Shown here one piece after another: positions 4,118 to 45,294 of a DNA stretch of 53,648 nt. The notes beneath the pieces are model-generated. The model did no database searches and was not told where the DNA came from. It saw only the letters and a list, made by a program, of their open reading frames with translations. The translations under genes and the position numbers were made by a program. The stretch's first letter is position 1. Every line of letters begins with the position of its first letter. The DNA is taken from IMG/VR virus record IMGVR_UViG_3300024999_000141, positions 1 to 53,648 of that record; one strand, given 5' to 3'. Source of the DNA: a virus.

Positions 4118-4156
4118 GGCGGCGTGGAGGGGAAGCCGCAGACGGGGTTGTCGTCG

Positions 4157-5457: not shown

Positions 5458-5465
5458 GGTCTCCC

Positions 5466-23188: not shown

Positions 23189-23197
23189 GAGGTCGCT

Positions 23198-23536
23198 GTG
23201 TCACTCGACGCTGCCATCGCCGCGATCGTCCGCGCCGCAGTCGAGGATGCCGTCCGGCCGCTGACCCTTCGGCTGAGCGAGATGGAGGCCGCGGTCCGGG
23301 CCGCGCCCCCGGTGGAATGGTTGACCGTCGCCCAGGCAGCGACCATGCTGACCGTCCGTCCGGCCACCGTGCGTGCCTGGCTCGACCGGGGTCTGCTCAC
23401 CGCCCACGGCACCCGCCGAGCCCTGCGCGTTGCGCGCCGGGAGCTGGTGGCGATGCAGCCCGACGCCGGCGGAGCCGAGGTCGTCGACCTCGACAAGCGG
23501 GCAGCCGAGATCGTCGCCCGCAGGAGGGCCCGCTGA
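23198..23536 (+). CDS. Excisionase-type helix-turn-helix protein
   Basis: 112 residues from GTG 23198 behind TAGGAGGTCGCT. Residues 43-90 form an excisionase/MerR-type winged helix (WLTVAQAATMLTVRPATVRA, WLDRGLLTAHGTRRALRVAR). Its TGA overlaps the integrase ATG (TGATG), the standard xis-int arrangement. It likely directs excision at the attachment sites. Confidence 0.82.
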   Translation: MSLDAAIAAIVRAAVEDAVRPLTLRLSEMEAAVRAAPPVEWLTVAQAATMLTVRPATVRAWLDRGLLTAHGTRRALRVARRELVAMQPDAGGAEVVDLDKRAAEIVARRRAR

Positions 23537-24966
23537 TGGCCAGCATCTACCCGCGGGGCAAGGCCCTCTGGGCTCACTACTACGAGCCCGACGGCACTCG
23601 CCGCAGCGTCAGCCTGGGCCTCCGGGTGGGGCAGGAGGCGGCCGCCCAGCGGCTGGCCGACCTGCTCGAGCAGAAGTCGGCAGAGGAAGCTCCGGCGCCA
23701 TCACCGAAGACCGTCGCCGAGTGGGTGAAGGTCTGGGGCGCGACCCGCGACAAGCGACCCGGCTGGAAGCCCACCGAGAGCCGTTTGCGGATGCACGTCC
23801 TGCCCGAGATCGGCGCCATGCTGCTCGGCGACGTCAAGCCGAGGCACCTGATCGCGCTGGTGCAGAAGTGCGAGAGCGCGGGGTTGGCGCCGCGCACCGT
23901 GCGGATGGTCTACTCGTCATGCCGCCTGCTGTTCAGAGCCGCCCAGGTGGCCGAGCTCATCCCGGCGACGCCCTGCGTCCTGCGCGAGCAGCTGCCGAAG
24001 AACGTCGACCGGGACGCGACCTGGAGAGCGCTGGCGGTGTTCAACCGGGGGGAGCTCGAGCAGTTGCTGGACGACGAACGGCTGCCGCCGGACGAGCGGA
24101 TCCTCGTGGCGCTGAAGGGATTGGCGGGCCTGCGCAACGTCGAGGCCTCGGCGCTCCGCTGGAGCTGGTGGGACCGCCTGGCCGCGCCGCTGACCAAGCT
24201 GCTGCTCGCCCGCACCAAGACCGGCCAGCCGCGTCAGGTGCCGGTGCATCCGGTGCTCGCTGCGATGCTCAGCGAGTGGGCCCTCTCCGGCTGGGCAGCG
24301 CGCTATGGCCGCTCGCCACAGCCAGAAGACCTGATGGTGCCGCGGTCGATCGACCCCGAGCGGGAGCGGACCGCACTCTACAGCTGCGACCATTTCAAGC
24401 GGCTGCTGGTCAAGGTCGGCCTGCGCCATCGCCGCGGCCACGACCTCCGCCGCACCTTCGTCACCCTGACCAGAGCAGACGGAGCACGCAGCGACGTGCT
24501 CGAGGCGATAACGCACGGCACCCGGGGCAACATCGTCGACGTCTACACGGAGTGGCCGTGGGCGACCCTCTGCGAGGCCGTCTCCTGCCTCAAGGTGGCC
24601 CGACGGGAGCGGCGCACGGTCACACTGCTCAGGGCGGCAACTGGTACACCTGCTGGTACAGTCGAGGCTGTCGCCGGACCCACCCTGAGTGAAAACGCCT
24701 ACTTGAGTGAGCGAGAAAGCTCAGAACAGATGTTCTTCTGCATCACTCGGCGCGACGACGTTTCGAGCGGTCTCGCGCCGCCTGACGTTGTCCGGAGCCG
24801 CGGTGACCGGGATCTGGGTGATCGGCAGGTGACGCCTGGAGTGGTTGAAAAGCGCCTCTTCTGTACCAACTGTACCAGCACGCTTCGCGGGGTTTTGGAG
24901 CTGATCGAGGGGGGGAGGATCGAGGAAGCGCGGGAGCGGATCCGGGGGGTGCTCGGCGGGAGGTAG
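23536..24966 (+). CDS. Tyrosine integrase with C-terminal extension
   Basis: 476 residues. An N-terminal arm-binding beta sheet (SIYPRGKALWAHYYEPDG) and a core-binding SAM-like domain (about 58-155) precede the catalytic domain with Arg200 (GLRNVEASALRW), His302-x-x-Arg305 (GHDLRRTF), His327 and the nucleophile Tyr337 (VDVYTEW). It ends with about 125 extra residues of unknown fold after the catalytic core. The DNA of that extension contains paired TGGTACA/TGTACCA repeats, discussed separately. Coupled to the excisionase gene. Confidence 0.93.
   Translation: MASIYPRGKALWAHYYEPDGTRRSVSLGLRVGQEAAAQRLADLLEQKSAEEAPAPSPKTVAEWVKVWGATRDKRPGWKPTESRLRMHVLPEIGAMLLGDVKPRHLIALVQKCESAGLAPRTVRMVYSSCRLLFRAAQVAELIPATPCVLREQLPKNVDRDATWRALAVFNRGELEQLLDDERLPPDERILVALKGLAGLRNVEASALRWSWWDRLAAPLTKLLLARTKTGQPRQVPVHPVLAAMLSEWALSGWAARYGRSPQPEDLMVPRSIDPERERTALYSCDHFKRLLVKVGLRHRRGHDLRRTFVTLTRADGARSDVLEAITHGTRGNIVDVYTEWPWATLCEAVSCLKVARRERRTVTLLRAATGTPAGTVEAVAGPTLSENAYLSERESSEQMFFCITRRDDVSSGLAPPDVVRSRGDRDLGDRQVTPGVVEKRLFCTNCTSTLRGVLELIEGGRIEEARERIRGVLGGR
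24642..24877. repeat. Paired TGGTACA / TGTACCA repeats in the 3' end of int
   Basis: TGGTACA occurs at 24642 and 24654 (12 apart), and its complement TGTACCA at 24862 and 24871 (9 apart): two directly repeated pairs in inverted orientation about 210 bp apart. With the GGCACCA pairs downstream of int, they could be integrase or excisionase arm sites flanking the candidate attP core. Confidence 0.35.
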
Positions 24967-28577: not shown

Positions 28578-29531
28578 TCAGGCTCGCAGGGCGAACCACG
28601 GCTTCCCACGGGAAGCATCAAATGTGAAACTGAGATTCAGGGTCGCAGGGAGGACACCGGCGACGCTCACTGCCGAATCGTAGCCCTCGAAGTTGTCCGC
28701 CCCCTCGTATTCGGCAGCGGCGAGGGCTGCGGAGCATTGGAGGCGGGCGTTCACGCCGTTGACTGTCCACGCCCAGATATAAGTCCCCGGGGCGACCGTC
28801 ACCGGGCCGCCGTAGACCGCGTAGACATGCACGCGGTTGGCAGCGCTCCAACCCGATACGCCATCGGTGGCGATCGCTGCGGTGCGCAGGACGAGGGCTC
28901 CCGCTGCGGTGTAGAGCCCGAGGCCTGCGAGATCCGTCCCGCCACCGTCGCTGATCGCCCGGACGACAATGAAGGAGACGTCCATTGCCACCGGCAGCAC
29001 GAAGCTCCGGGTGTTGATGCGGTTCGCCGCGCCGTTGCCTGTATCTGTGACGTACTCAGTCAGCTGGTCGGAGAGCTTCCATGATGTGGCCTTGACCACG
29101 GCCGGCGGAGTGATCCAGCCATCGAGCAGGCCGGCCGCATCCGCCTTCGGGATGGCATTCGCAGCCGGCGTGGCCGTGGCGATCTCGTCCGTCCCGCCGT
29201 GTTTGTGTGACGTCGCGTGGGCCGTCGGAGTCCGGGCATTGGAGAGCCGAGCGTCAGTGCCTCCGCAGGCTTGCGTCGCCCCCGTCCCAATCGTCCGGAG
29301 GCTGCCGGTTGCCGCCGCCGCGTCCACTGCCATGGCATCAGAGCCGGTCGGCTGGTGAGCCGCAGCGTGGGCGGGCGGAGCGACCTCGAGCAGCCCGACC
29401 CGCACCGCCAGGGCAACAGCAGCGGCAGTGATGGCATTAATCTCCGCCTTCGCCCGAGCAAACTGGAGCCGTACTCCCGACGTCGTCGGGGCAATGGCGG
29501 GGGGTTGAGTGGGGTCGATCTCGCTGGCCAT
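28578..29531 (-). CDS. Tail-fibre/receptor-binding-like protein
   Basis: 317 residues. The N-terminal helix (LQFARAKAEINAITAAAVAL) is followed by the short repeats common in phage fibres (AHAAAHQPTGSDAM, AHATSHKHGGTDEI, IGTGATQACGGTDARL), then a beta-rich C-terminal domain (SFVLPVAMDVSFIVVRAISD, GTYIWAWTVNGVNARLQCSA) that may bind the receptor. The His-rich 'HxxxHxxGGTD' elements are typical of trimeric fibre shafts. It is the last structural gene before the lysis module and is less GC-rich than its neighbours. Confidence 0.7.
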   Translation of the reverse strand: MASEIDPTQPPAIAPTTSGVRLQFARAKAEINAITAAAVALAVRVGLLEVAPPAHAAAHQPTGSDAMAVDAAAATGSLRTIGTGATQACGGTDARLSNARTPTAHATSHKHGGTDEIATATPAANAIPKADAAGLLDGWITPPAVVKATSWKLSDQLTEYVTDTGNGAANRINTRSFVLPVAMDVSFIVVRAISDGGGTDLAGLGLYTAAGALVLRTAAIATDGVSGWSAANRVHVYAVYGGPVTVAPGTYIWAWTVNGVNARLQCSAALAAAEYEGADNFEGYDSAVSVAGVLPATLNLSFTFDASRGKPWFALRA

Positions 29532-29540
29532 CCTGATCCC

Positions 29541-31226
29541 TCAGCCGCAGGCGGCGAGTGAAGTTCTGTCGAGGCGGTAGGCGCTGCGCCAGGCCGAGAG
29601 CATCTCGGATGCGAATCCCCCGCGCTCCCATGGATTCCCGCCTTCCGTCCCCGTCCATCGCGCCCATGGGATGGCCAGGCCCCGCTTGGTCCGCTCCCGC
29701 GTGATCGACACCGGGACGCCCAGCCGCTCCGCCACGTCCCGCAGCAGCGCCTTCGTCCAGTCCGGGTCGATCTTCAGCCGGGCGGGGAGGGCGACGGCAA
29801 ACTCGATGATCCGGTGGTCGAGAAACGGCGCCCGGTTCTCCAGCGAATGCGCCGCGGCCATGCGGTCGGCCATCCGCAGCAACAGCTGCATAGTCGTATG
29901 CCACTCGGTGCGGGCCATCCCGCTCACGAGCTGGCCGGGGCGCACCTCTCCGGCGCAGCGGTCGACCAGCTTTCGCGCCGTCGACAGAGCACCCGGACCG
30001 CCGCGGTTGAGCAACCGGGCGAGCACGTCCGCCTCGGAGCCGAGCAGCTTCTCCCGCGTTGGTCGGTAGGCACCGAGCAGCGGGTCGAGGGCGGCGCTGT
30101 CCAGGTGCGACAGCAGCCGGTAGCGGCTGTAGCCCCAGAACAGTTCGTCGGCGCCCTCGCCGGAGAGCACGACGCGCCCCCCGTCCGCAGCGATGCGCTC
30201 GAACAGGTGCCACTGGCAAACAGCGGTCCACGTCGCCGGGGTGTCGAGGTGGTAGGCCACCCGGGGCAGCACGGCCCGCAGCTCGGCCAGCCCGAAGCGG
30301 ACCGGGATGACCTCGCCTGCTCCCGCAGCGGCCTGCCGAGCGGCGCGCATATTGTCGAGGCCGTCGTCCTCGAACGAACAGCAGTAGAGCGCATCACACC
30401 GTGCGACCGCCTGGACGATCGCCGAATCGAGCCCGCCGGAGAGCAGCACGGCGACCGGCACCTCGGCGACGCAGCGCAGCCGGATCGCGTCGACGACCAG
30501 CGCCTCGAGCTCGTCGAGCGCCGCGGCACGCGTGACCCCCGAGTCCTCGCCCCCGCGCGGCAGCACCCACCACGCCCTCGGCCGAGGGTCCGCTACGTCC
30601 TCGAGGGAGCGGATCAGGAGGCACTCCCCCGGACCCAGTCGGCGGACACCGGAGAACGGAGTGGCCTCGAGGCAGTCGAACTCGAGGCAATCGAGCTCTG
30701 GGCAGGGCACCTCCCGCAGCTCGCCGGGGAGGGCCTTGATCTCGGATGCGAACCAGAGCTCGCCGCCGCCGGCCCGCCAGTAGAGCGGCTTCTCGCCGGC
30801 GCGGTCCCGCGCCAGGAAGACGACGCCGACCTTGAGGTCGACGACGGCCAGGCCGAACATCCCGTTGAAGCGCTCGAGCATCCCGGCGCCCCACCTCCGC
30901 CAGGCGCGGGCGACAACCTCGGTGTCGCAGTCCGACTCCCAGGGTTGGCCGTCCGACAGCTCGGCCCGGAGCGCGCGCCAGTTGTAGATTTCTCCACAGA
31001 AAGCAACTGCCACGCGCGGCCCAACGAAGAGCTGCGGCACGCAGAGGTCGCTCTGGTCGACGATCTTCAGGCGCGCCGTCCCAAGAGAGACGAGCCCCCA
31101 CGGTAGTTGGAAATGCCGCTCCCCTGCCGTATCCGGGCCACGATGGCTTAGCCTGGAGACAGATAGACCAGTATTCCCACAATCCGAACCGCCCGGCGGA
31201 AGCACAGATCCGACAATTCCGCACAT
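29541..31226 (-). CDS. asnB: Glutamine-dependent asparagine synthetase-like amidotransferase
   Basis: 561 residues, full length for AsnB. The glutaminase domain has the nucleophile Cys2 (MCGIVG), LSHRGPD and SDCDTEVV. The synthetase domain has the pyrophosphate loop LSGGLDSA (263-268) and GEGADELFWGYSRY. Odd point: the glutaminase loop usually written NGEIYN reads CGEIYN (Cys77), changing an oxyanion-hole residue. AsnB homologues also amidate sugars in surface-glycan clusters. Here it heads a cargo cassette with methyltransferases, a radical SAM protein and glycosyltransferases. GAGGTGG precedes the ATG. Confidence 0.92.
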   Translation of the reverse strand: MCGIVGSVLPPGGSDCGNTGLSVSRLSHRGPDTAGERHFQLPWGLVSLGTARLKIVDQSDLCVPQLFVGPRVAVAFCGEIYNWRALRAELSDGQPWESDCDTEVVARAWRRWGAGMLERFNGMFGLAVVDLKVGVVFLARDRAGEKPLYWRAGGGELWFASEIKALPGELREVPCPELDCLEFDCLEATPFSGVRRLGPGECLLIRSLEDVADPRPRAWWVLPRGGEDSGVTRAAALDELEALVVDAIRLRCVAEVPVAVLLSGGLDSAIVQAVARCDALYCCSFEDDGLDNMRAARQAAAGAGEVIPVRFGLAELRAVLPRVAYHLDTPATWTAVCQWHLFERIAADGGRVVLSGEGADELFWGYSRYRLLSHLDSAALDPLLGAYRPTREKLLGSEADVLARLLNRGGPGALSTARKLVDRCAGEVRPGQLVSGMARTEWHTTMQLLLRMADRMAAAHSLENRAPFLDHRIIEFAVALPARLKIDPDWTKALLRDVAERLGVPVSITRERTKRGLAIPWARWTGTEGGNPWERGGFASEMLSAWRSAYRLDRTSLAACG

Positions 31227-31241
31227 CAGGCCACCTCGGCA

Positions 31242-31270
31242 TTGACAGGCCTAAACTACCTGCTTATACA
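31242..31270 (+). promoter_or_regulatory. Near-consensus promoter of the HNH endonuclease gene
   Basis: TTGACA (31242-31247), 17-base spacer, TATACA (31265-31270), in the 70-base gap between divergent asnB and the HNH gene. It is the best sigma-70 match in the window and is followed by an AGGAGGG ribosome site, unlike the leaderless phage promoters. Confidence 0.6.
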
Positions 31271-31296
31271 CATCCCGAACTCCTCAGGAGGGACAC

Positions 31297-31806
31297 ATGG
31301 GCAAGATTATTCCACTCGAGAAGAGGCTCTGGGAGAGAGTCGACAAGTCAGCCGGACCCGACGGATGTTGGCTCTGGACTGGATCGTCGTGCTCTCTCGG
31401 GTATGGCCACATTGGAGCGAAACCACGGTTCACCACGGTCCTTGTCCATCGAATAGTCTACGAGCTGACTTATGGTGACGTCCCAGATAGCATCAAAATA
31501 CTACACAGATGCGACAACCCAAGATGCTGCAACCCCGCTCATCTCTTTCCTGGCACACTCGGCGAGAACAATAAGGACAGATCATCCAAGGGCAGGACAC
31601 GCAATGCCGTCGGGGAATCAAACCCCCTCGCTAAGCTCACGGACGAACAGGTCAATACGATCCGAACAAGGTACGTCCGCAACAGCAGGACGGATGGTCT
31701 TGCCCAACTCAGCCTGGACTATGGAGTCAGCGGCACGCGCATTTCGATGATCGTTCGCGGCAAGGCGTGGAGGCACCTACCTCAGCCGTTTGCACGCACA
31801 GACTAG
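31297..31806 (+). CDS. HNH homing endonuclease
   Basis: 169 residues on the strand opposite to the surrounding operon. CWLWTGSSCSLGYGHIG, LVHRIVYELTYGDVPDS, LHRCDNPRCCNPAHLF, and GTLGENNKDRSSKGR form a His-Asn-His/zinc core. The C-terminal part (LTDEQVNTIRTRY, LSLDYGVSGTRISMIVRG) is a helix-turn-helix DNA-binding tail. GC content is clearly lower than nearby genes. It has its own promoter and overlaps the neighbouring methyltransferase tail-to-tail by 3 bases, so it looks like a mobile insertion. Confidence 0.88.
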   Translation: MGKIIPLEKRLWERVDKSAGPDGCWLWTGSSCSLGYGHIGAKPRFTTVLVHRIVYELTYGDVPDSIKILHRCDNPRCCNPAHLFPGTLGENNKDRSSKGRTRNAVGESNPLAKLTDEQVNTIRTRYVRNSRTDGLAQLSLDYGVSGTRISMIVRGKAWRHLPQPFARTD

Positions 31807-32456
31807 CCCCGCCGACCATGGTCAGCCCTCCGCACGAACCAGAGTTCGTTGCAGGGCCGCTCCGGCATCAGCCGAGTGGTCCAGGTGCAGCCGAGTTCGA
31901 CGAGGACCCGCTCGACGTCGGCGCGGCGCCAGGTGATCGAGTGCACCCCGATGGCTGCGTCGTAGTCGCGCAGTTCCGCGGTGGCCGGCGGACGGTACCA
32001 GTTGATGATCGCCAGCTTGCGGGCCGCCCGGATGAAGCTTCGCAGCGGGCCGGCGAACTCCGGCTGGTGTTCGAACAGCGCCTTGGTGTAGGCGACGTCG
32101 GCGACGTCGGGCTCGAGGTCGGCGAAGGTGCCGTGCCGCAGGTCGACCTTGCGGGTCTTGGGCAGGGGGGCCTCGACGGCCTTGGCCTGCACGGCGAGAC
32201 GCAGCCGCTCGACCATGCCCACGGACCCGTCGAAGCCGACGTAGGAGGAGATCCGCCCCGACTTCAGCAGGGGCCAGAGGTGGTCGAGGAGGTCGAACCC
32301 CGGGCCGAAGCCGACCTCGAGCAGGTCGACCTTCCCGCGCTTCCCCGCCTCGCCGGCGATGGCCGCGGCCGCCACGCAGCGGGCCTCGTTGGCGCGGTCG
32401 TCCTCGAGGAAGCGGTCGGGAGCGGAGTCCCAGAAGTTCACGGTGCTGGTGCTCAT
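31803..32456 (-). CDS. Class I SAM-dependent methyltransferase
   Basis: 217 residues. Motif I is LLEVGFGPGFDLLDHL, followed by YVGFDGSVGMVERLR and VADVAYTKALFEHQPE in the place of the post-motif strand ('LEHv'). It starts at ATG 32456. Small-molecule or sugar methylation is more likely than DNA methylation because no (N/D)PP(Y/W) motif is present. Member of the late-operon cargo cassette. Confidence 0.8.
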   Translation of the reverse strand: MSTSTVNFWDSAPDRFLEDDRANEARCVAAAAIAGEAGKRGKVDLLEVGFGPGFDLLDHLWPLLKSGRISSYVGFDGSVGMVERLRLAVQAKAVEAPLPKTRKVDLRHGTFADLEPDVADVAYTKALFEHQPEFAGPLRSFIRAARKLAIINWYRPPATAELRDYDAAIGVHSITWRRADVERVLVELGCTWTTRLMPERPCNELWFVRRADHGRRG

Positions 32457-32647
32457 GGCTGACCCCTTGCGGCCAAGGCGGCCGCTGCGCGCTGCTCCGG
32501 GACAGCGACGATCCGAACTGCCTCGGGGGCAACTCCCAGGTCAGACGCCCCGGCATGCAGGATGGCCAAGCGGTTCAAGGCCGCCTTGTGCTCCCTGCTG
32601 CATGCCGACGGGAGCAGGACGAGCCGGCCGATAGGAGGCGGATTCAT
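32453..32647 (-). CDS. Small hypothetical protein (64 aa)
   Basis: MNPPPIGRLVLLPSACSREH, then KAALNRLAILHAGASDLGVA, and a short Ala-rich tail. It overlaps both flanking methyltransferase genes by 4 bases. No motif recognised. As a short frame beside a radical SAM protein it could be thought of as a precursor peptide, but it has no Cys/Gly-rich core and looks like a small folded protein. Confidence 0.5.
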   Translation of the reverse strand: MNPPPIGRLVLLPSACSREHKAALNRLAILHAGASDLGVAPEAVRIVAVPEQRAAAALAARGQP

Positions 32648-33471
32648 CGGATCCTCCGCCCGCGCATCGACACCGGGAACGGCCCGGTCCAGGTGACTTC
32701 GTAGCCGGCCATCTCGAACCAGCCTCGGACCTCGGCCTCGGTGTGCCACCACCGGTACTGCGGCGCGTGCCAGTCCAGCGTGTCCGAGATGCACTCCTCG
32801 TCGTCCGCGCTGTTGCTGGCGCGCAGCACCTGCTCGATCGGACCCCACGCGCCGGCGTACAGGTCACGAAGCTCCACTGCGTGGCGCTCGAAGGCCGCGT
32901 GCAGCGAAGCGGGGGGGCAGGTCCGGGTGATCTCGTGGAGCAGATCCATCGCCGGCTGCAGCCGCTCGTCCCACGTGCGGCAGTAAACCCAGACGGAGAG
33001 CTCGCCGCCGATCTTGACCGTGCGCGCCACCTCGGCGAACGCCAGGGCCGTGCTCGGCGTGTGGTGCAGGACGCCGACGCTGAAGGCCGCGTCGAAGACG
33101 CCAACCCGAAAGGGCAGGTCGAGCAGCGAGGCCTGCACCAGCCCGGCGTCCGGGGCGTTGGTGGCGGCCGCAGCCAGGCCGGCGGGGGAGAGGTCGACAC
33201 CGACCATCTGCGCGCCCCACGCCCCGGCCGCGGCGCAGAACCGGCCGCAACCGCAGCCTGCGTCGAGCACCAGCTTGCCGGCAAGGTCGGCTGCGGTGAA
33301 CCCCGTCTTGAACGTCAGCTGCCCGGCGGTCGTCGCCTGCGGCTTCGGGTGCTGCCTCCAGCGCTGATCGAACCCGAGGTCGACGGCGATCTTGGCGTCG
33401 AGGTAGCGCAGCGGCTGCTTCGTCTGGCGGTTGGGTGCCTTCATCAGGCCTTGCAAAGTGGCGCTGTCCAT
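32644..33471 (-). CDS. Class I SAM-dependent methyltransferase
   Basis: 275 residues. Motif I is LVLDAGCGCGRFCAAAG, with MVGVDLSPAGL as the acidic strand, FDAAFSVGVLHHTP as the post-motif strand and GGELSVWVYCR after it. This is the UbiE/methyltransf_11 layout used for small molecules and sugars. ATG 33471 overlaps the stop of the radical SAM gene (TGATG), so the two are translated together. No DNA-methylase motif is present. Confidence 0.85.
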   Translation of the reverse strand: MDSATLQGLMKAPNRQTKQPLRYLDAKIAVDLGFDQRWRQHPKPQATTAGQLTFKTGFTAADLAGKLVLDAGCGCGRFCAAAGAWGAQMVGVDLSPAGLAAAATNAPDAGLVQASLLDLPFRVGVFDAAFSVGVLHHTPSTALAFAEVARTVKIGGELSVWVYCRTWDERLQPAMDLLHEITRTCPPASLHAAFERHAVELRDLYAGAWGPIEQVLRASNSADDEECISDTLDWHAPQYRWWHTEAEVRGWFEMAGYEVTWTGPFPVSMRGRRIR

Positions 33472-34421
33472 CAGCCTCTCCGCATCGGGCAGACCGCGCA
33501 CTCCGCGAACCGCACCGGGTCGAGCGTGTCGGCGGTGAGCTGCTCGCGCAGCGCCACCAGTTCCGGGTGAGCCCAGGGGTCGCCGGTCGAGGCCGGGCCG
33601 AGGCCGATCCGGTAGGACCGGCAGCAGGGGTGCGCTGCGCCATCGGGGCCCACGTCCAGCGAACGGAACGGGGTCAGGCAGTGGCCCGGGCCGACCGCAG
33701 CTGCCGCCGCGGCGCCGGCGCTCGTCGCGCCGCTGGCCCAGTCGCTGATCTCCATGGCCGGGTACTGCAGCCGGAGGGCAGCGACGCGTGCGGCGATGGG
33801 CGTCACCTCCGCGTCGGCCAGCCCGTCACCGGCTGCGGAGGTCATCTCCAGCGTGGCCCCCCGCAGCAGGTGCAGGTAGGTGAGGCCCAGCTCGTTGCAG
33901 AGCGAGGCCATCCACTCGACCTGGCCGATGTTCTGCCGCAGCAGGACCATGTTGACGCCGACCGCCCGTCCGGCCTCCCGCGGCAGCGCCAGGAAGCCGC
34001 GCAGCTCCGCGAGGACCGCGCCGAGGGAGAGCCCCCGGCGGATGGCGGCGTAGGTCGCCGGGTCCGGCGAGTCGAGCGAGACGGTCAAGTACCCGGGCAG
34101 CGACGCCAGCTGCGGGAACATCGACAGCCGGCTCCCGTTGGTGATCAGGTTGACCTCGGTCCACCTCGACTCCCAGCGGTTTTGCTCCACGAGCAGCCGG
34201 TCCAGCATCCGCCCGAAGTCGGGGTGCATCGTCGGCTCCCCGAACGAACAGAACTCAATCGAGCGCAGCCCTTCGTACCGGTCGAGTAGCGCCTCGAACT
34301 CGGCCAGCTTCAGCTCCGGACGGGCGACCTCCTGCCGGCGGGCGACGGCCTGCCAACACATCAGGCAGTCCGCGTTGCAGCGCCAGCCGAGGATCAGGGT
34401 CAGGTGCGTCGGGCCCGTCAT
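33471..34421 (-). CDS. Radical SAM protein with SPASM-like C-terminus
   Basis: 316 residues. The cluster motif is CNADCLMC (Cys15, 19, 22; CX3CX2C), followed by SIEFCSFGEPTMHP (the GGE-like motif), NLITNGSRLS and VSLDSPDP. The C-terminus has further Cys (GHCLTPF, PCCRSY, ECAVCPM) that could hold an auxiliary cluster, as in SPASM proteins. These enzymes modify peptides, sugars or cofactors by radical chemistry. The substrate is unknown; the neighbouring methyltransferases and glycosyltransferase suggest glycan or cofactor work. Confidence 0.87.
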   Translation of the reverse strand: MTGPTHLTLILGWRCNADCLMCWQAVARRQEVARPELKLAEFEALLDRYEGLRSIEFCSFGEPTMHPDFGRMLDRLLVEQNRWESRWTEVNLITNGSRLSMFPQLASLPGYLTVSLDSPDPATYAAIRRGLSLGAVLAELRGFLALPREAGRAVGVNMVLLRQNIGQVEWMASLCNELGLTYLHLLRGATLEMTSAAGDGLADAEVTPIAARVAALRLQYPAMEISDWASGATSAGAAAAAAVGPGHCLTPFRSLDVGPDGAAHPCCRSYRIGLGPASTGDPWAHPELVALREQLTADTLDPVRFAECAVCPMRRG

Positions 34422-35515
34422 AGGGCAGCCTCGACGAACTCAGGCGGCTCGCTGCTCGTCATCGTGTAAAGCTGCGGAGGGGTGACGAAGTACCCGGGCA
34501 GTCCGACGCCGTCGTCCCCGCGCCAGCTGCATGCGTTCGAGCCGACCACCGCAGGACGGGCGCGTAGCGCCTCGTGACTGGCGATCGTCCCGTCCAGCCA
34601 GTAGACCTGCATGTAGTGCGGGTGTGGATCGATGAAGTGCCAGGACCCCGAGTACCATACCTCGGCCGCCGTGTGCCCGTGGACGCCGTCCGAGTGGTGC
34701 ATCGCCACCATCCGGCCGGGCAGGCCGAGCAGCCGCCTCGCCAGCCAGAGCAGGACCCGCACCATCTGGTCGCACCACCCGATTCCGCCGATCAGAATTT
34801 CCAGCGGCCGCAGCTCGCCGGTGTGCTCCGGGCAGCCGCGCAGGTAGGTCCCGACCCAGACGACCAGGCGCGGCAGCTGCTCGCCGAGCGGCCCCGTGCC
34901 GATGGCGACCCGGGCGAGATGCAGGTAGTGGTGCAGCGGGTCGATCTCCCGGTGGATCACGACGCCGAAGTTGGCCGCGCTCTCGTCTGCGGACAGCGGC
35001 GCCAGGCGCAGCGGCGGGCGGTGGTCACCGATGTTCATCGACCACACCTCCGCGTCGAGCCCGGCGAGCAGCTGGACCAACTCCAGTGGCGAGTACTCGC
35101 GGACGTGGAACGCATTGCCCGCGCCCCACTGGTTCCAGTTCGGGGTCGAGAAGAACACGCCGACCCGCGCCACCCGGAGCAGCTGCGCGAGGAAGCCGAC
35201 GTCGTCCTCGACGTGCTCGATGACGTCCAGCGAGACGACCCAGTCCCAGCTGCCGGAGGGGTAATCCTCGATGCGCCCCGGTTGCACCAGCGGCCCGGCC
35301 GGCAGGAGATCGAATCCCTCGCAGACGCAGCCGGCCTCGCGCAAAATCTCGATGCCGTACCCCGTGCCCGCGCCCGCATCGAGCACGCTCTGGCCCTGGA
35401 CTCGGGCGGCGACCCAACGGTACCAGCGCGCCTGGCAGCCGTTCGGCTGCGCCTTCCGCTCCTCGACCGTGAGCTCGTGCATGTTGGAGACCGGACCGGC
35501 GTTGCGCGGCGTCAC
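34418..35515 (-). CDS. Methyltransferase-transglutaminase-like fusion
   Basis: 365 residues. Residues 25-190 are a class I methyltransferase (SVLDAGAGTGYGIEILRE, DWVVSLDVIEHVEDDVGFLA). Residues 235-330 are a transglutaminase/cysteine-protease-like domain with an intact triad: Cys248 in IGGIGWCDQMVRVLLWLAR, His281 in GHTAAEVWY and Asp296 in FIDPHPH. Such domains cleave or cross-link peptide or amide bonds. The fusion is rare in phages. ATGA overlap with the radical SAM gene. Confidence 0.8.
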   Translation of the reverse strand: MTPRNAGPVSNMHELTVEERKAQPNGCQARWYRWVAARVQGQSVLDAGAGTGYGIEILREAGCVCEGFDLLPAGPLVQPGRIEDYPSGSWDWVVSLDVIEHVEDDVGFLAQLLRVARVGVFFSTPNWNQWGAGNAFHVREYSPLELVQLLAGLDAEVWSMNIGDHRPPLRLAPLSADESAANFGVVIHREIDPLHHYLHLARVAIGTGPLGEQLPRLVVWVGTYLRGCPEHTGELRPLEILIGGIGWCDQMVRVLLWLARRLLGLPGRMVAMHHSDGVHGHTAAEVWYSGSWHFIDPHPHYMQVYWLDGTIASHEALRARPAVVGSNACSWRGDDGVGLPGYFVTPPQLYTMTSSEPPEFVEAAL

Positions 35516-37467
35516 AGAGCGCGCTCCACGAAGGCGGCGTAGCGGTCAGCCCACGCGGACCAACTCCAGCGCTCGGCGATCTCCCGCCGGTTGATCGCGC
35601 CCATGCGCTGCGCCCGGCCGGGGTCCGCCTGCAGCCGACGCAGCGCAGCGACGAAGGCCTCGACGTTGCGCTCGACGATCTCGATCCCGGTCTCGCCCAG
35701 GTGCTCGATCTGCGAGTCCCGCAGCTCCCGGTGGTTGCCGCTGTCGGTGGTGATCAGAGCCTGCCCCGCAGCCATCGCCTCCATGGTCGAGTTGGACGCT
35801 CCCTCGAACAGCGAGGCGCAGAGCGCCACCGAGCCGCGGCGGTAGAACGCCGGCATCTCAGCGGGAGGCAACCGGCAGGTGTGGTACTCGGCGATGACCA
35901 GCGGCGTGTGCGACTGGCGGCAGGCCGGCTCGACGATCGAGTGGAAGCCCTTGACGTCGATCCCGCTGCCGGCCGAGTTGTGCTGCGCATTGCCGTTCCA
36001 GCTGGCGACGACGCCCGGCGTCTCGCCGCGATCGAACCGGCGCACGTTGACCGGGTTGGTCAGGTAGACCGCGCCGGGACAGTGCTCCCGCAACTCGGCG
36101 AAATTAGCCGCGGTGACGACGTGGAACGCGGCGAAGCGGTTGACCAGGTCGAACTCTGCGGGGCCGGGCGGGGCCATCCGCTCCGGGTAGAACCACTGCG
36201 CCCGCAGGGAGCCGAGCACCCGGCCGCGCGGCAACACCCGATCCAGCGGCCAGCGGTGGTACGGGGCGAACACGGCGTCGTAGCCCGCCATGTCCGTGCG
36301 GGCCGCTCCACCGCCGGCGACGTAGGCGAAGTCGAACGCGAAGCGGTCGCCGAGGTACTCCGCCATGTCGTGCAGGTTCTGGTCGAACGCCCACCCCGGC
36401 ACGTCCGCCAAGAGCAGCACCCGCGGCTTCGCACCGGCCGGCTGCGGGCGCAGAGGCACGATCGGCCAGGGGCGCGGCGATCCCGAAGCTGCAGTCGGAG
36501 TCGGGCTGACCGCAGCGATGCGGCGGAGCTCGACGACCGGCGGATCCGGGTCGGACGCAGCAACGGCCGTCAGGCCGAGCGAGGCTGCGACCACCTCGGC
36601 GTAGGGCAGTCGGCGCAGCGGCACGGGCGGGGCCTCGAGCGCGGAGCGCACCGCCTCGATCCAGCGCCCGGCCGGAGCATCCACCGGAAGGAACGTCGCC
36701 GAGGTGCGGAGCGCGGCCCGGCAGCCGGGGATGTCCGACGTCACGACGGGAATTCCACGGACGGCGGCCTCGGTCATCGCCAGCGGATGCACTTCCGCCC
36801 GCGTCGGCGACAGGACCAGGAGCGCCTCGCTGAGCCAGCGATCGGGGGTCATCCCGGAGGGGGCGATCGTGACGTGCGGCAGCCGACGCCAGAGGGCCAG
36901 CTCCTGATCCGTCGCACGCCCGGGCATCACGAACCACGGGACGTCGAGCACCTGCTGCGCCACGGCGAGGGCGACCGGACCGCCCTTCGCTCGCGAGGCG
37001 CCGGGGACCACGATCGCCGAACCGACCGGCGCTCCGCCGCGCTCCGCCGCCCAGGTCGACGGGGGCAGAACGAAGCTGCGCGACCAGCCGCGCTCCGGCT
37101 CACCGAGCTCGCTCGACTTCGCCAAGGCAGCGCCATAGCCGGGGGGCAGCGGCCCGTGGTGGTGCCAGTACACCAGCCGGTTCAGCGCCCGCGCCTGTTC
37201 GGCGGCGCGCGCCGTGCGCAGCCAGGCCGGGTTGATCGTCGTGATGACGAGGTCGGCCGTCCAGTCGTCGGGGGTGATCAGCAGAGCGCGGGCGAGCCAC
37301 GTCACGCACCGATGCTGCCACGGGGGAGCGGTGCCCTCCGCGTGGTGGCAGCGCACCGTGTGGCCCAACTCGGCGAGCGTCCATGCCAGGAACGACACGG
37401 CGATCGACATCCCGTCCCGCCCGCCATCCGGGCCACCCCATCGGCGTGCGAGCAGGTCGATCCGCAT
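35512..37467 (-). CDS. Double glycosyltransferase (two GT-B units)
   Basis: 651 residues from ATG 37467. The N-terminal GT-B/GT4-like unit (about 1-330) has RRWGGPDGGRDGMSIAVSFL, SAIVVPGASRAKGGPVALAV and LLVLSPTRAEVHPLAMTEAA. The C-terminal unit (about 345-651) has VLLLADVPGWAFDQNLHDMA, GAVYLTNPVNVRRFDRGETP and ASLFEGASNSTMEAMAAGQA (EX7E-type). Each is shorter than a typical GT4 but both keep the nucleotide-sugar half. It could build a disaccharide on a virion protein or a host surface glycan. Confidence 0.82.
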   Translation of the reverse strand: MRIDLLARRWGGPDGGRDGMSIAVSFLAWTLAELGHTVRCHHAEGTAPPWQHRCVTWLARALLITPDDWTADLVITTINPAWLRTARAAEQARALNRLVYWHHHGPLPPGYGAALAKSSELGEPERGWSRSFVLPPSTWAAERGGAPVGSAIVVPGASRAKGGPVALAVAQQVLDVPWFVMPGRATDQELALWRRLPHVTIAPSGMTPDRWLSEALLVLSPTRAEVHPLAMTEAAVRGIPVVTSDIPGCRAALRTSATFLPVDAPAGRWIEAVRSALEAPPVPLRRLPYAEVVAASLGLTAVAASDPDPPVVELRRIAAVSPTPTAASGSPRPWPIVPLRPQPAGAKPRVLLLADVPGWAFDQNLHDMAEYLGDRFAFDFAYVAGGGAARTDMAGYDAVFAPYHRWPLDRVLPRGRVLGSLRAQWFYPERMAPPGPAEFDLVNRFAAFHVVTAANFAELREHCPGAVYLTNPVNVRRFDRGETPGVVASWNGNAQHNSAGSGIDVKGFHSIVEPACRQSHTPLVIAEYHTCRLPPAEMPAFYRRGSVALCASLFEGASNSTMEAMAAGQALITTDSGNHRELRDSQIEHLGETGIEIVERNVEAFVAALRRLQADPGRAQRMGAINRREIAERWSWSAWADRYAAFVERAL

Positions 37468-37469: not shown

Positions 37470-37838
37470 TCAGCGCTCCTCGAAGACCACGACGGAGAAG
37501 CCCGACGCGAGGTCTTCGCAGGTCACATACACATCGGTCGGGGTCCGGAACGACCAGAACTCGTAGGCGTACCCTGCCGATCCGGGGCTCACGACGACCT
37601 GGGTCGTGTGTTTGTCGTGAGGGCGGGCGAGTCGCAGCCGCACGACGTACGGACCCGCACCGTTGAACGTCGGAATCGTGCGGCCGAACTCCCCACCAGA
37701 CGAGACCCACATGGGCTCGCCGCCGCTCCAGACCACGGCTCCCCATGCGATCGGCACCAGAGCGGCCGTCCCGCGCGGCAGGCCGCGGGGACCACGGGAG
37801 GCCTTCAGCCGAGCACCCCGCCCAGGCAGGCCGGGCAT
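37470..37838 (-). CDS. Hypothetical tail-associated protein
   Basis: 122 residues. The N-terminus is basic and low-complexity; the rest is a beta-rich domain (GRTIPTFNGAGPYVVRLRLA, YEFWSFRTPTDVYVTCEDLA). It lies between the fibre-type genes and the glycosyltransferase. It could be a fibre tip, a chaperone or a small virion protein. Start ATG 37838 overlaps the upstream stop. Confidence 0.55.
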   Translation of the reverse strand: MPGLPGRGARLKASRGPRGLPRGTAALVPIAWGAVVWSGGEPMWVSSGGEFGRTIPTFNGAGPYVVRLRLARPHDKHTTQVVVSPGSAGYAYEFWSFRTPTDVYVTCEDLASGFSVVVFEER

Positions 37839-38245
37839 CAGCCGAGCACCCCGCCCTGGGCGACGACGTAGCAGTTCTGCGCGACCGCGGCGACGATCGC
37901 CAGCGACGTGGAGATCAGCTGCAGCGAGTATCCCGGAGGGAGCTGCAGGTCGAGTTGGACGATGACGGGGTCGGCGTAGAGGCCTTCGGCCTGCGCTGCG
38001 ACCTCGTGTTGCTCCAGGTAGATCACCTCGCCGGCGGGGGTCAGCACGGCCAGCTGGACGTAGCCGGCGTCGTTGCCGCCGACCGGGGCCGGACGGAGCC
38101 AGAACCGGACCGTCTCGATCAGCAGCGTGGTCGACACCAGCGCCGAGTTGGTGGCGATGGTCTCCAGGATCCCAGCCCCCGGCCCGCCGTCGTTGACGTG
38201 GGTCGCCTCCATGTAGGGCGTCTGGATGAACAGCGGTGCGGACAT
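37838..38245 (-). CDS. Hypothetical tail-fibre-region protein
   Basis: 135 residues, beta-rich throughout (ALVSTTLLIETVRFWLRPAP, PVIVQLDLQLPPGYSLQLIS), with a Gly/Ala-rich end. The content resembles phage fibre or adhesin segments. No catalytic motif. It follows the fibre N-terminal gene 38257-38754. Confidence 0.55.
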   Translation of the reverse strand: MSAPLFIQTPYMEATHVNDGGPGAGILETIATNSALVSTTLLIETVRFWLRPAPVGGNDAGYVQLAVLTPAGEVIYLEQHEVAAQAEGLYADPVIVQLDLQLPPGYSLQLISTSLAIVAAVAQNCYVVAQGGVLG

Positions 38246-38256: not shown

Positions 38257-38754
38257 TCAGGAGAAGTGACTGAACGCGTAGAGCTTCGAGCCGATCGTGT
38301 CCTCGTCCACGTACAGCCGCGTCGCCAGCACGACCGAGGGGTCGGCGGTCAACGTCAGGGCGTCTGCAGCGTTGGCGATGGCCACGTTGAGCCGGATGTA
38401 GGCAGCGACCGAGGCCCCGTCGACCCCCGGGTCGGGCTTGTAGGTTTCCGGGATCAGGGCGACGAGGATGAGGTCGCCCTCCGAGTCGAAAGCGCCGGCC
38501 TCGCGCATCGTCCAGCCGCCGTCACCGACGGGAATGGTCGCCTCGACGCGGACCTTGTCTGTCGTGCCCGGGGCGACCTCGACGGAGTTGACAGCGCCGC
38601 GCCAAACCTCGTTGCCAAGGGCGACAGCGGCGACGTCGGGCAGCGTGGCCACGTCCCCGACCGCCACCTCGGTGATCTCGAGGGGGTAGCCGCCGGCCAG
38701 CGCGTTGGCGATCTTGGCCAGCCCGACGGTGGTGATCAGCTGCAAGAACGCCAT
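38257..38754 (-). CDS. Tail-collar fibre N-terminal protein (gpH-like)
   Basis: 165 residues matching the N-terminal domain of P2 gpH-type fibres (DUF3751): LITTVGLAKIANALAGGYPL, EITEVAVGDV, NEVWRGAVNSVEVAP, WTMREAGAFDSEGDLILVAL. This domain attaches the fibre to the baseplate. The protein stops soon after the domain, so the distal shaft must be supplied by separate genes, perhaps 28578-29531. It sits right after gpI as in P2. Confidence 0.8.
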   Translation of the reverse strand: MAFLQLITTVGLAKIANALAGGYPLEITEVAVGDVATLPDVAAVALGNEVWRGAVNSVEVAPGTTDKVRVEATIPVGDGGWTMREAGAFDSEGDLILVALIPETYKPDPGVDGASVAAYIRLNVAIANAADALTLTADPSVVLATRLYVDEDTIGSKLYAFSHFS

Positions 38755-39398
38755 CAGAGCACCTCGGTGTGCAGCCCGATCTCCGGAAAGCCGCCGCAGA
38801 CCAGCGTGGATTCGACCGTCATCGTCTCGCTCAGCTCGAGCAGGTGCGCCCGCACCGGGACGTAGGCGTCCAGGATCTGCATCAGGTTCGCCAGCTCGGT
38901 GAGCGTCAGCCCCCGATGCTCAATCAGCGCGTCCACCCGATAGGTGAACGGCGGGTCGGGGGGCACCGACTGCCACCACTCGGTCAGCGAGAGCATGTTC
39001 GTCCGGATGTCCCAGACCGCGGCCCCCGCGTCCCACTCGACCGCACCGCCATCCCAGAGCGCCGGGGTCTCCATCAGCTCGGTGACCCGGTCCCAGGCCC
39101 AGCGCGTGCCGCGGCGCCGGTAGACGTTCACCATCTGGGCGAGGACCGTGCGCTTGCGCTCAAGGCCGGCAGTCGCCCAGCCCTCCAGATCGACCAGCCC
39201 GAACCACCGCGCCGCCTTGTCGGCCTGCGCCTCGGTCAGCGACGGCACGCGGGAGAAGAACGCGCACTGCTCGGCCAGGGCGGCGATCGCCTGGATCTCC
39301 GGGTCGAGCGCCTGCACAAGGGCGACGGCGTCGGCATCCTCTGCGACCAGCCCGGCCAGCGCGTCGACCAGGGAGCCGGTGAGGATCGACGTGCTCAC
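38754..39398 (-). CDS. I: Tail protein I (baseplate)
   Basis: 214 residues. QALDPEIQAIAALAEQCAFF, RVPSLTEAQADKAARWF, LERKRTVLAQMVNVYRRRGT and WAWDRVTELM are typical of P2 gpI. It forms part of the baseplate between gpJ and the fibre. ATG 39398 overlaps the gpJ stop. Order J-I-H is conserved. Confidence 0.85.
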   Translation of the reverse strand: MSTSILTGSLVDALAGLVAEDADAVALVQALDPEIQAIAALAEQCAFFSRVPSLTEAQADKAARWFGLVDLEGWATAGLERKRTVLAQMVNVYRRRGTRWAWDRVTELMETPALWDGGAVEWDAGAAVWDIRTNMLSLTEWWQSVPPDPPFTYRVDALIEHRGLTLTELANLMQILDAYVPVRAHLLELSETMTVESTLVCGGFPEIGLHTEVL

Positions 39399-40489
39399 GC
39401 GGACAGCCCCATGTACTGCGGTGCAACGACGTAGGCGTCACGGACGGCGTGCTCATGCGACGCCAGCGCGGCGAACGAAGGTTCGATCACGTTCACGCGC
39501 CGCGCCCCGGCTCCGTAGAGCAGGCCGATCAGCTCGGTCGGGTCGACGTCTCGGCCCAGCGCCGCCTCCTGCCAGTCGCAGAACGCATCCTGCGCCACCT
39601 CGACCGCCGCCTGGACGTCGGCGATGACCCCGGAGTCCGTCTGCCGGATCCAGTACTGCACCTGGACGGTGTAGCTCACCTCCGGCGCCTCCAGCACCGT
39701 CACCTGGTCGGTCAGCGGGCGGGCCTCGTCGGCCGACACCTCGGCGTCGACCACGCTGATGACGTCGGCGATCACCGCCGGGTCTGCCGAGTCGACCAGC
39801 AGGTAGACCTCCACCTCGCCGGGGTCGGGGCTGATGGTCGCTGCGTCGATGACGCGGGTGTCGGCGAGCCGGGCGAGCTGGTTGTAGGCGGAGCGCGGCC
39901 CGCAGGTCGTGAAGCCATCGGGAGCGGCGATGACCGACGGCCGGTACTCGTCGTCCGTCTGCTCGTCGACCCCGCCCGCCGTGGCGGTGGTGTTCGCCGC
40001 GGTCACCCCGGCGATCGGATCGACCAGCACGGTGATCGTCCCCGCGGGCAGGTCGTTGCTCTCCGGCCCCACGACGGTGCAGCGCGAGGCGCCGGAGCCG
40101 GCGAACACCCCGACGGCCAGCGTCAGCTCGTCGACCAGCGCCCAGAGAAACGCGCCGTCCGGCGTGGTCACCCGGTGGCCGGCGGGGATCACGAGCTCCA
40201 CCGCGGCCACGGTCCGGGTGTACTCGACCGTCGTCGTCGACCCCTCGCCGGCCGGCCTTGCGGCCCCGACAAACGCTCCGAGGGCATCGAGCGCCGCGTC
40301 GTCTGCGTCGAACGGCAGGTTGCGCAGGTCGGCCAGCTCGATCAACGTCCGCAGGTGCGACAGGTACTCGATGATCGACTGCAGCAGCAGCCGCACCGGA
40401 TCGGCCAGCAGCAGCGTGCGACCCGTGATCATGGTGAACCGGGCGAGGACCTCCGCCTCGATCTCCGCCGGGGTCTTGGCGACGGTCAT
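39395..40489 (-). CDS. J: Baseplate assembly protein J
   Basis: 364 residues with the gpJ pattern: ARFTMITGRTLLLADPVRLL, LQSIIEYLSHLRTLIELADL, LDALGAFVGAARPAGEGSTT, YRPSVIAAPDGFTTCGPRSA. It forms the peripheral wedge of the baseplate. The protein is longer and more strand-rich than gpW, its upstream partner, and ATGA-coupled to it. Confidence 0.9.
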   Translation of the reverse strand: MTVAKTPAEIEAEVLARFTMITGRTLLLADPVRLLLQSIIEYLSHLRTLIELADLRNLPFDADDAALDALGAFVGAARPAGEGSTTTVEYTRTVAAVELVIPAGHRVTTPDGAFLWALVDELTLAVGVFAGSGASRCTVVGPESNDLPAGTITVLVDPIAGVTAANTTATAGGVDEQTDDEYRPSVIAAPDGFTTCGPRSAYNQLARLADTRVIDAATISPDPGEVEVYLLVDSADPAVIADVISVVDAEVSADEARPLTDQVTVLEAPEVSYTVQVQYWIRQTDSGVIADVQAAVEVAQDAFCDWQEAALGRDVDPTELIGLLYGAGARRVNVIEPSFAALASHEHAVRDAYVVAPQYMGLSA

Positions 40490-43094: not shown

Positions 43095-43283
43095 GGGCAG
43101 GTTCGGCGACGTGTCCGGCGTCGGAACCACCGGCACCGTCAGCACCAATCCGGCGGGCAGCCGCACCAGGTAGGCGTGCGCCGGGTTGGCCAGGATGAGC
43201 AAGTCCATGTAGCGCTCATCGCCCAGCAGGGTGTAGGCGAGCGCATCCCAGGTGTCGCCGCTGGCGGTGGTGTGCTCAGCCAT
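43077..43283 (-). CDS. X: Tail protein X (LysM-like)
   Basis: 68 residues. TTASGDTWDALAYTLLGDER, YMDLLILANPAHAYLV and LPAGLVLTVPVV form the LysM-like fold of P2 gpX. It connects the tail tube to the baseplate hub and lies between the tape measure and gpD as expected. Confidence 0.87.
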   Translation of the reverse strand: MAEHTTASGDTWDALAYTLLGDERYMDLLILANPAHAYLVRLPAGLVLTVPVVPTPDTSPNLPPWRRP

Positions 43284-45294
43284 AGGACAGCCGCTGTTGC
43301 TGCTCCAGCGCCGCCTTCATCTTGGCGAGCAGGTCGTCCGAGGCCGCTTTCAGGGCAGCGGCCAGACCGGAGCCCCCGGCCTCGCCGCTGGTCACCGTGA
43401 TCTGAGGGTTGAAGTTGACCGAGAGGGTCTGCGAACGGTCCACCCCGCCGGCGGCAGAGCGCGAGCCGACCCCCGCCAGAGCGCTGCCGATCGGCGCGGC
43501 CGCCTCGCCGCCGAGCATGCCGCGGAGCTTGGCGAGGTTGGGGGCGTCCCCGGTCGGAGCGTTGGCGATCGCCGCAGCGCCGGCGCCGACGGCGGCACTT
43601 CCTACGTTTCCAGCGAGCCTCGCCGCGTCGACGGCGATCCCCACCCCGGGCAGCAGCGACAGCAAGTCGAGCACCCGGCCCAGCACGCCGGCGATGATGG
43701 AGCGGACGACCCCACCCCACTCCTCCCAGATCCCGGTCAGCCAGCCCATGAACGCGGTCCAGTAAGGCTGCAGGACGCCGCCGAGCCAGAGCACGGCGCC
43801 GACCGCGGCCCGCACCGCCCCCCAGGTTGCAGTGCCGAGGATGGCGACGATGGTGCCGAAGATCCGCATGACCTGAATCGCGCCGCGGACAGCGGGCCCG
43901 AACACGATCCAGAGCACCTCGGCCGCCGCGCCGATCACCACCCCCGCCACGGCACCGAACGACCGGACGGCCGCTGTCATCGTCCCCCAGTAGTGGATGA
44001 TCGTCGCCAGGATCAGCGGCACGATCGTCAGCGGGGTGAGCAGCAGGCCGACAACGACCGTCAGCGCCTTCACCGCTGGGCTGGCCTTGGAGAACCAGCC
44101 CACCAGGTCATCCCAGAAGACGACCAGCGCGGCCGTGGCGGCGACCAAGGCCACGATGCCCGCGACGACCCAGACGACCGGGTTGGCCCAGAGCGCAGCG
44201 GCGAACTCCCAGGCAGCGGGCGAGGCCGTCAGAAAGGCCACGCCCAACTTGGACACCGACCCGGTCAACAGCTTGAAGCCCGCACCGGCGAGGATGAGGT
44301 TGTCCCACCCGCCGGCGAGTTCGGCCGCCCGGGTCGTCAGGACCGCGACCCGAATCGCCAGGTCGCGCATCGTCTCCAGCAGAGGGATGATCTTGGGCAG
44401 GGTCTCGACGGCCCACCGGGCGAACCGTTCCGCAAGTTGGCGGACGAGCGCCTGGTTCGTGCGGAGCCAGTCCGCGAGACGGATGAAGAGGTCGGTGAAG
44501 GCCGGCAACAGAGCGGCGCCGAGGATGTTCTTGAGGCCGGCGAGGGTCATCTGCAGGTCGATCAGGCGGTCGCTGAACGCTGCCGCGTCGCGCGCTGTCT
44601 TGCCCGACAGGACGTTCCCCGTGGCGCGCGCCTGCTTGCGCATCTCCTCGAGCCCGGCCGACCCGCCGGCGAGCATCGCGCCCAGCTCACGGGCGCCCCT
44701 GCCCAGAATGGCCTGAGCGGCGGCAGCGCGGCTGGCGGCGTCCGGCATCTTGGCGAGGCGATCGGCGACCAGCTCGAGCGCCCTGTCCGGGCTGACCTTG
44801 CGCAGCAGGGCGAAGTCCAAGCCCAGCGCGGCGAACGCCTTCTGCGCCTGCGCTCCGCCCGCGGCCGCCTGGCCGAGGGTCATGCTCATCTTGTTGATCG
44901 CCACGTCCAGCGCGCCCACCGGCACGCCGCTCAGGGACGCAGCGTACCGCAGCTCCTGCAGGGCCTCGATGGTGATCCCGAGCTTCTGCGCGTCCTCTTC
45001 GGCTGCGTCGGCAGCGTCCGCCGTCGACTTGGCCAGGGCGAACAGGCCACCGCCAGCGGCAGCGGCAGCGGCCCCCAGCCCGGCGGCCATGACGAGGGCT
45101 TCGGTGCCCACGCCCCTAAACGCCGTCCCGATGGCGCCCCACGACTCGAGGGCCTTGCCACGGATCGACAGCTGGTGCGCCTTGCGCTGCAGCTCGGTCA
45201 GCTTCTTGCCGGCCTCGCCGGTCGCGGCGCCGAAACTGGGCGCGAGCAAGCCGCCGATACGGAAGGCCAGCTCGTATGTCCGGCCCTTCGCCAC
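43276..45294 (-). CDS. Tail tape measure protein
   Basis: 672 residues. The N-terminus is helical and Lys/Ala-rich (AGKKLTELQRKAHQLSIRGK), with TMP-type segments AAEEDAQKLGITIEALQELR and RLIDLQMTLAGLKNILGAAL. The centre (about 385-490) is a run of hydrophobic helices (VVWVVAGIVALVAATAALVV, PLTIVPLILATIIHYWG). It sets tail length and passes through the tube. Its size predicts a fairly short tail. It follows gpE/E' as in P2. Confidence 0.9.
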   Translation of the reverse strand: MAKGRTYELAFRIGGLLAPSFGAATGEAGKKLTELQRKAHQLSIRGKALESWGAIGTAFRGVGTEALVMAAGLGAAAAAAGGGLFALAKSTADAADAAEEDAQKLGITIEALQELRYAASLSGVPVGALDVAINKMSMTLGQAAAGGAQAQKAFAALGLDFALLRKVSPDRALELVADRLAKMPDAASRAAAAQAILGRGARELGAMLAGGSAGLEEMRKQARATGNVLSGKTARDAAAFSDRLIDLQMTLAGLKNILGAALLPAFTDLFIRLADWLRTNQALVRQLAERFARWAVETLPKIIPLLETMRDLAIRVAVLTTRAAELAGGWDNLILAGAGFKLLTGSVSKLGVAFLTASPAAWEFAAALWANPVVWVVAGIVALVAATAALVVFWDDLVGWFSKASPAVKALTVVVGLLLTPLTIVPLILATIIHYWGTMTAAVRSFGAVAGVVIGAAAEVLWIVFGPAVRGAIQVMRIFGTIVAILGTATWGAVRAAVGAVLWLGGVLQPYWTAFMGWLTGIWEEWGGVVRSIIAGVLGRVLDLLSLLPGVGIAVDAARLAGNVGSAAVGAGAAAIANAPTGDAPNLAKLRGMLGGEAAAPIGSALAGVGSRSAAGGVDRSQTLSVNFNPQITVTSGEAGGSGLAAALKAASDDLLAKMKAALEQQQRLSYG

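Follow-up and report, generated by a model that had tools for sequence, protein, structure and literature searches.

A recurrent phage gene cassette, encoded among structural genes, that may build a glycan on a virion protein

Background

What is a run of glycosyltransferase, methyltransferase and amidotransferase genes doing among the tail-fibre genes of a phage? The question is raised by the virus record IMGVR_UViG_3300024999_000141, analysed here as one stretch of 53,648 nucleotides (nt; hereafter the window), in which seven open reading frames (ORFs) of the late (-) strand, at positions 29541-37467, form what we call the cassette, flanked by fibre genes and by a weakly fibre-like gene. A preliminary description, made from the letters alone, had proposed that these genes build a glycan or conjugate on the tail fibre, or alter the host surface. 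Our analysis gives a probability of roughly 0.6 to a soluble, cytoplasmic, phage-encoded pathway that would assemble a small glycan with added decorations on a phage protein exposed at the surface; the likeliest acceptor is a protein of fibre type whose gene immediately precedes that of the glycosyltransferase (GT).

Results

In the order of the - strand, and with roles assigned by family, the cassette encodes a double GT4 glycosyltransferase of 651 amino acids (aa) (35512-37467; PF13692 1e-19 and PF00534 8e-18, the halves each matching separately), a class I methyltransferase (MT) whose C-terminal domain is probably transglutaminase-like (TG-like; the MT-TG protein, 34418-35515; PF13489 2e-10), a radical SAM protein (33471-34421; PF04055 2e-13), the class I methyltransferase MT1 (32644-33501; PF08241 2e-20), a 64-aa ORF (32453-32647), a second class I methyltransferase, MT2 (31803-32456), and an AsnB-type glutamine-dependent amidotransferase (29541-31226; TIGR01536 8e-88, over cut-off). 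ORF and profile matches thus place every gene named in the preliminary description on the - strand between the fibre-attachment and the fibre-like genes. The GC content at third codon positions (GC3) of the cassette, 0.86-0.94, is similar to that of the structural genes. The GT starts 2 nt past the stop of the preceding 122-aa gene, overlaps of 4 nt join the GT to the MT-TG gene, the latter to the radical SAM gene, and the 64-aa ORF to each of its neighbours, MT1 and MT2, while the radical SAM and MT1 genes overlap by 31 nt. The coupling by short overlaps described earlier therefore holds from the GT through MT2 but not for AsnB, which lies behind a 576-nt gap. This gap contains a + strand HNH endonuclease gene that the same description had missed (31297-31806; PF13392 3e-11, PHROG 1872 1e-33) and that is no cassette enzyme; its GC3 of 0.64, below that of the cassette, suggests a later arrival. 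As a free-standing homing-type endonuclease, its product might assist cassette mobilisation. A promoter and terminator scan gave no signal clearly over chance.

The same set recurs in phages otherwise unlike the window. Indeed, a search with the MT-TG protein of 80 genomes from one small phylum, that of the metagenome-assembled genome (MAG) holding L017, a phage of the window's own group, gave a 41% match on a 43.9-kb contig (region L064) with a major capsid protein (PF25209 1.8e-12) and phage genes unlike those of the window, the set following the capsid gene and preceding the next gene of structural type. The L064 set resembles that of the window in the GT C half (51% over 311 aa, 3e-96), the MT matching the N half of the MT-TG protein (42%), MT2 (37%, 9e-34), the AsnB synthase domain (35%) and the radical SAM protein (24%), and it holds an extra GT and an extra MT. 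An alignment of the window and L064 AsnBs recovered 54 viral AsnB loci, among which four more phage species carry the cassette, namely L070, L071 (= L072), L073 and L078, and the forty-odd remaining loci are without it. Note that these collection scans reach only relatives matching short peptide patterns, the AsnB pattern coming from two cassette members; L064 lies in a genome assembly and the other carriers are metagenome contigs. GT4 domains are found in 6/6 cassettes, with the GT always first and AsnB always last. Matches to the window include AsnB (54% over 572 aa) and the radical SAM protein (49%) of L070, as well as MT1 (49-55%, to L070, L071, L073 and L078). Sister cassettes add sulfotransferases, an NDP-sugar (nucleoside diphosphate sugar) epimerase, a third GT and an FkbM methyltransferase; by family, the sulfotransferases, the epimerase and the FkbM enzyme are typical of glycan tailoring.

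In an all-against-all comparison, the window shares with the other five only the cassette genes, except for one replication-type protein on the L064 contig. L064 and L073 form one siphovirus-like lineage, in which the major capsid gene and then a fibre-like gene with a Ser/Thr-rich product precede the set; L070, L071 and L078 are distantly related among themselves. Since homologues co-occur in unrelated phages, the cassette is a genuine set, as the preliminary description had supposed; its counter-possibility of unrelated single insertions is contradicted, and the chance insertion of single genes is rejected on this co-conservation. In addition, the genomes holding L017, of the window's group, and L064, with a window-type cassette, belong to the same small phylum, which may be an arena of cassette exchange.

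These results bear directly on a reading of the locus as unrelated metabolic cargo, in which auxiliary genes (asparagine synthase, for instance) would have accumulated singly and by chance. This reading could appeal to virome surveys listing viral asparagine synthases as amino-acid auxiliary metabolic genes (PMC10465536, PMC10980836). We consider it very improbable and already contradicted by the co-conservation, given that unrelated phages keep the genes together, the GT leading and AsnB closing the set, that the cassette AsnBs group together (91/98; 0/500 label shuffles as low), and that the other viral AsnB loci are without the set. Simple asparagine metabolism was likewise rejected.

Among isolated phages, blastn and tblastn found no usable cassette relatives: a set of 50,697 phage records contains no homologue of the radical SAM protein, of MT1 or of the GTs of L064 and L071; the window GT is matched once, generically and over a short stretch (19% of the query); matches to the MT-TG protein are short, and those to AsnB are distant family members only. 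Scanning the genome collection with the GT N domain brought up none at first, and the gene set is undescribed in the open-licence literature searched. Another context of phage AsnB homologues, a methyltransferase - glutamine amidotransferase - methyltransferase trio, was seen in Streptomyces phage TurkishDelight (L030, 90090-93518).

The GT itself is a chimera. Its N half matches only the window's own group (L007, L012 and L017, 51-57%), its C half matches only cassette phages (L064, L070, L071 and L078, 51-55%, and part of L073, 45%), and the break lies near residue 340. Relatives of the window, found through baseplate J (~57-66% identical), comprise L007, L008/L009, L012/L014/L015 and the MAG contig L017, and in all four loci that reach the site (L007, L008, L012 and L017) a GT with the same N-terminal domain starts right behind the fibre genes. 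What follows differs: GT2 and more modules are fused to the GT in L007 and L012, and L017 has MT, GT2 and GT modules, then a GDSL-like hydrolase and an MT. By gene content, the slot is thus a constant GT domain with variable glycan-type enzymes behind it; more distant relatives, e.g., phage KLER1-1, are without the cassette at that site. The simplest reading of the chimera would be recombination inside the GT gene, through which the group keeps its fibre-adjacent GT domain and acquires the remaining pathway, so that the cassette would move between unrelated phages and be re-joined to a resident GT domain. This reading of the chimera is our main reason to infer that the resident fibre protein would be the target of the N domain. 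In L073, the GT gene reads as two overlapping ORFs (3803-5486), owing to a frameshift or a sequencing error.

The second possibility raised in the preliminary description was that the cassette alters the host surface, i.e., that it edits host polysaccharide or lipopolysaccharide late in infection or in the lysogen, with superinfection exclusion or receptor masking as a result. The window phage is temperate, as its integrase indicates, and GT4 enzymes, AsnB and methyltransferases are common in surface-polysaccharide clusters. However, ~50 cassette proteins showed no clear membrane segment by hydropathy (the few stretches scoring 1.6-1.8 are single and were judged buried core), and no flippase, polymerase, membrane GT or exporter was found in the six cassettes. 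Host-surface alteration is disfavoured because such components are lacking in 6/6 cassettes, as opposed to the wzm/wzt genes of a plasmid O-antigen locus; moreover, the genes are embedded in structural operons, and the N half of the GT is conserved together with the group's fibre locus. We therefore hold this explanation unlikely. A pathway that lacks membrane parts is consistent with an acceptor that is cytoplasmic and becomes packaged into the virion. Its soluble enzymes are encoded with structural genes, namely the fibre genes of the window and, in L064/L073, the capsid gene. A GT match to an E. coli plasmid, with a GT-MT-GT run, proved to be an ordinary O-antigen locus with wzm/wzt and was set aside.

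Inspection of the single enzymes refined several assignments. The radical SAM protein has the CX3CX2C motif (CNADCLMC at residue 15) and a short Cys set at its C-terminus; the SPASM domain claimed previously gives a weak match below the cut-off (0.006, 17-21 bits vs 21.5). Of the proposed methyltransferase-transglutaminase fusion, the methyltransferase half stands on its Pfam match, whereas the C domain has no Pfam match and was detected with a custom profile built from 27 transglutaminase-core domains (2.7e-4, above 4000 shuffles), which aligns Cys, His and Asp, with a profile-profile probability of 90%; its homologue is encoded as a stand-alone protein in L078 (7e-23). MT2 is sub-threshold in Pfam (0.02), and its L064 homologue is a clear methyltransferase (PF13489 5e-12). 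The 64-aa ORF has no homologue among the other five cassettes. For the MT-TG protein and the downstream fibre, AlphaFold predictions were too poor to be used (pLDDT, the predicted local distance difference test score, of 33).

The window AsnB combines a Cys2 glutaminase (MCGI at residue 1) with the SGGLDS synthase loop at residue 263, and the AsnBs of L064 (7610-8599), L073 (9992-10954) and L078 (9680-10822) keep SGGLDS without the glutaminase half. These three short forms, the resemblance of AsnB to lasso cyclases (NF033535 1e-36), the presence of a TG-like domain, as in the lasso-like logic of an AsnB-type cyclase plus a TG-like protease, and the small ORFs preceding the GT could together point to a pathway of the RiPP type (ribosomally synthesised and post-translationally modified peptides). 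Here the small upstream ORF would be a precursor peptide on which the radical SAM, AsnB-like, TG-like and methyltransferase enzymes act, the product being secreted or carried by the virion. We judge this improbable, since the window AsnB reaches 126.6 bits against a lasso cut-off of 525 and is above the asparagine-synthase cut-off, the invariant core consists of the GTs, the TG-like domain occurring in only 2/6 cassettes (the window and L078), no export gene or recognition element was seen, and the small ORFs of L064/L073 are fibre-like.

An AsnB-like protein is also encoded within a 7-deazaguanine cluster of Achromobacter phage Motura (L031), and GTs can modify phage DNA (PMC12619734), so that modified bases in the phage DNA might be what the cassette enzymes glycosylate or amidate. 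Such DNA hypermodification was rejected and is the least probable of the explanations considered: no base-precursor gene of the queC/queE, TS-like (thymidylate synthase-like) or hydroxylase kind was found in the cassettes or among the scanned window proteins, some small ORFs being outside the scan, and the cassette lies within late structural operons.

Discussion

Which protein would then receive the glycan? A small ORF lies directly upstream of the GT in 6/6 cassettes, and these ORFs are candidate acceptors. In the window, it is the 122-aa protein (37470-37838, - strand; its counterparts in L008 and L017 are 46-48% identical). In L064/L073, it encodes 103/95 aa (43% identical, 2e-16) with Ser/Thr/Gly-rich fibre-like repeats, between capsid and GT; in L071/L078, 113/117 aa (32%, 5e-14); and in L070, 137 aa. 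We propose that the group-specific N-terminal GT4 domain would recognise the phage's own protein and add the first sugar, and that the cassette-conserved C-terminal GT4 domain (with the third GT in some versions) would extend the glycan. Methyltransferases would then cap hydroxyls or carboxyls, AsnB would amidate a uronic-acid-type carboxylate, and the radical SAM protein could perform a redox or rearrangement step on a sugar, while in other phages the sulfotransferases and NDP-sugar epimerase would tailor the glycan further. The benefit might be shielding of the particle or altered adsorption.

Virion glycan assembly, as in the preliminary description, is the best reading, but the restriction to the tail fibre is not retained: elsewhere a capsid gene or a small ORF lies upstream, and a tail-fibre-only role was dropped because the cassette is found behind a capsid gene. 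More tentatively, and with somewhat less than even odds for the whole, the cassette could be a transmissible, modular system of virion modification. In such a system, a phage-specific GT domain would address a fibre or capsid-surface protein, and an exchangeable set of enzymes (GT4, methyltransferases, radical SAM, AsnB with or without glutaminase, TG-like, sulfotransferase and epimerase) would build an amide-containing, methylated and sometimes sulfated conjugate that is known from no virus.

Several points weigh against glycan assembly on a virion protein. No modified virion protein has been seen, and no host is known. The small ORFs upstream of the GT do not form a single family from lineage to lineage, half of the cassettes (3/6) have an AsnB without the glutaminase half, and the radical SAM protein, TG-like domain, MT2 and sulfotransferase are not constant across cassettes. 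Structural genes near L070, L071 and L078 were recognised from their order and from their similarity to one another, and Pfam gives them no significant support. By its likely function the cassette would be a variant of virion glycosylation, membership being unproven because no modified virion protein was seen.

In mode of action, the nearest known systems are those of mycobacteriophages and chloroviruses. Virion glycosylation in mycobacteriophages was reportedly described by Freeman et al. in 2023, and according to the preliminary description such glycans are O-methylated. As two papers relate, the mycobacteriophage capsid and tail tube carry glycans made by phage-encoded glycosyltransferases (PMC12619734, PMC10877033). 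The cassette likewise encodes GTs, but action on a virion protein is known there, and here a multi-enzyme cassette (2-3 GT domains, several MTs, radical SAM, AsnB, TG-like and sulfotransferase) recurs in unrelated phages. In chloroviruses, virus-encoded GT and methyltransferase domains, some in multi-domain GT-methyltransferase proteins, act on the capsid glycan, a likeness by description; these are, in contrast, eukaryotic viruses, and AsnB, radical SAM and TG-like proteins are not mentioned in the passages of the source consulted (PMC4691112).

O-antigen clusters such as that of plasmid pAL.H8 (L129) also combine GT4s, a class I methyltransferase and an epimerase in one operon. In some surface-polysaccharide clusters, sugars are the substrates of AsnB-type amidotransferases. 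The pAL.H8 locus has wzm/wzt export genes, whereas the phage cassettes, in structural operons, are without a membrane or export component. Lasso-peptide clusters share an AsnB homologue, a TG-like domain, small ORFs and tailoring enzymes with the cassette, but differ in the same respects that speak against a RiPP pathway, i.e., an AsnB under the lasso cut-off, an inconstant TG-like domain and GTs as the constant core.

Few cases of virion glycosylation are known in bacterial viruses. If our reading is true, a recurrent multi-enzyme cassette would make particle decoration a selectable trait traded among phages, and could be a source of new tools for site-specific protein glycosylation. It also advises caution, as a viral 'asparagine synthase' may not always mean nitrogen metabolism.

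Other features of the window

By its gene content, the window is a temperate phage with a contractile tail, encoding an integrase (22711-24966), baseplate J (39395-40489), a tape measure (43276-45294), a sheath (46331-47998) and a portal (52163-53647) that shares up to 59% identity with its counterparts in Escherichia, Vibrio X29-like and Paenibacillus Lily-like phages. With respect to the genes said to flank the cassette, the tail-fibre N-terminal domain protein is clear (38257-38754, - strand; PHROG 327 7e-44; the L007 and L012 fibre proteins are 63% identical to it), but the fibre-like protein downstream (28578-29531, - strand) has a weak match, to a PHROG tail protein (1.9e-5 over ~40 residues). 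The fibre locus further encodes a 135-aa protein (37838-38245, - strand; 57% to L017). Its homologues in L008 (6178-6750) and L017 (5461-6120) have an in-frame lipoprotein-type signal upstream (LALAACG and LALCACG, respectively), which is missing in the window. Behind the fibre-locus GT of L012, a protein with an apparent signal peptide is encoded (13206-14174). Outside the cassette, the window also carries a weak DHH/DHHA1-type protein (4588-5625, -) and a C5-cytosine DNA methylase (18614-20488, +; 9e-19).

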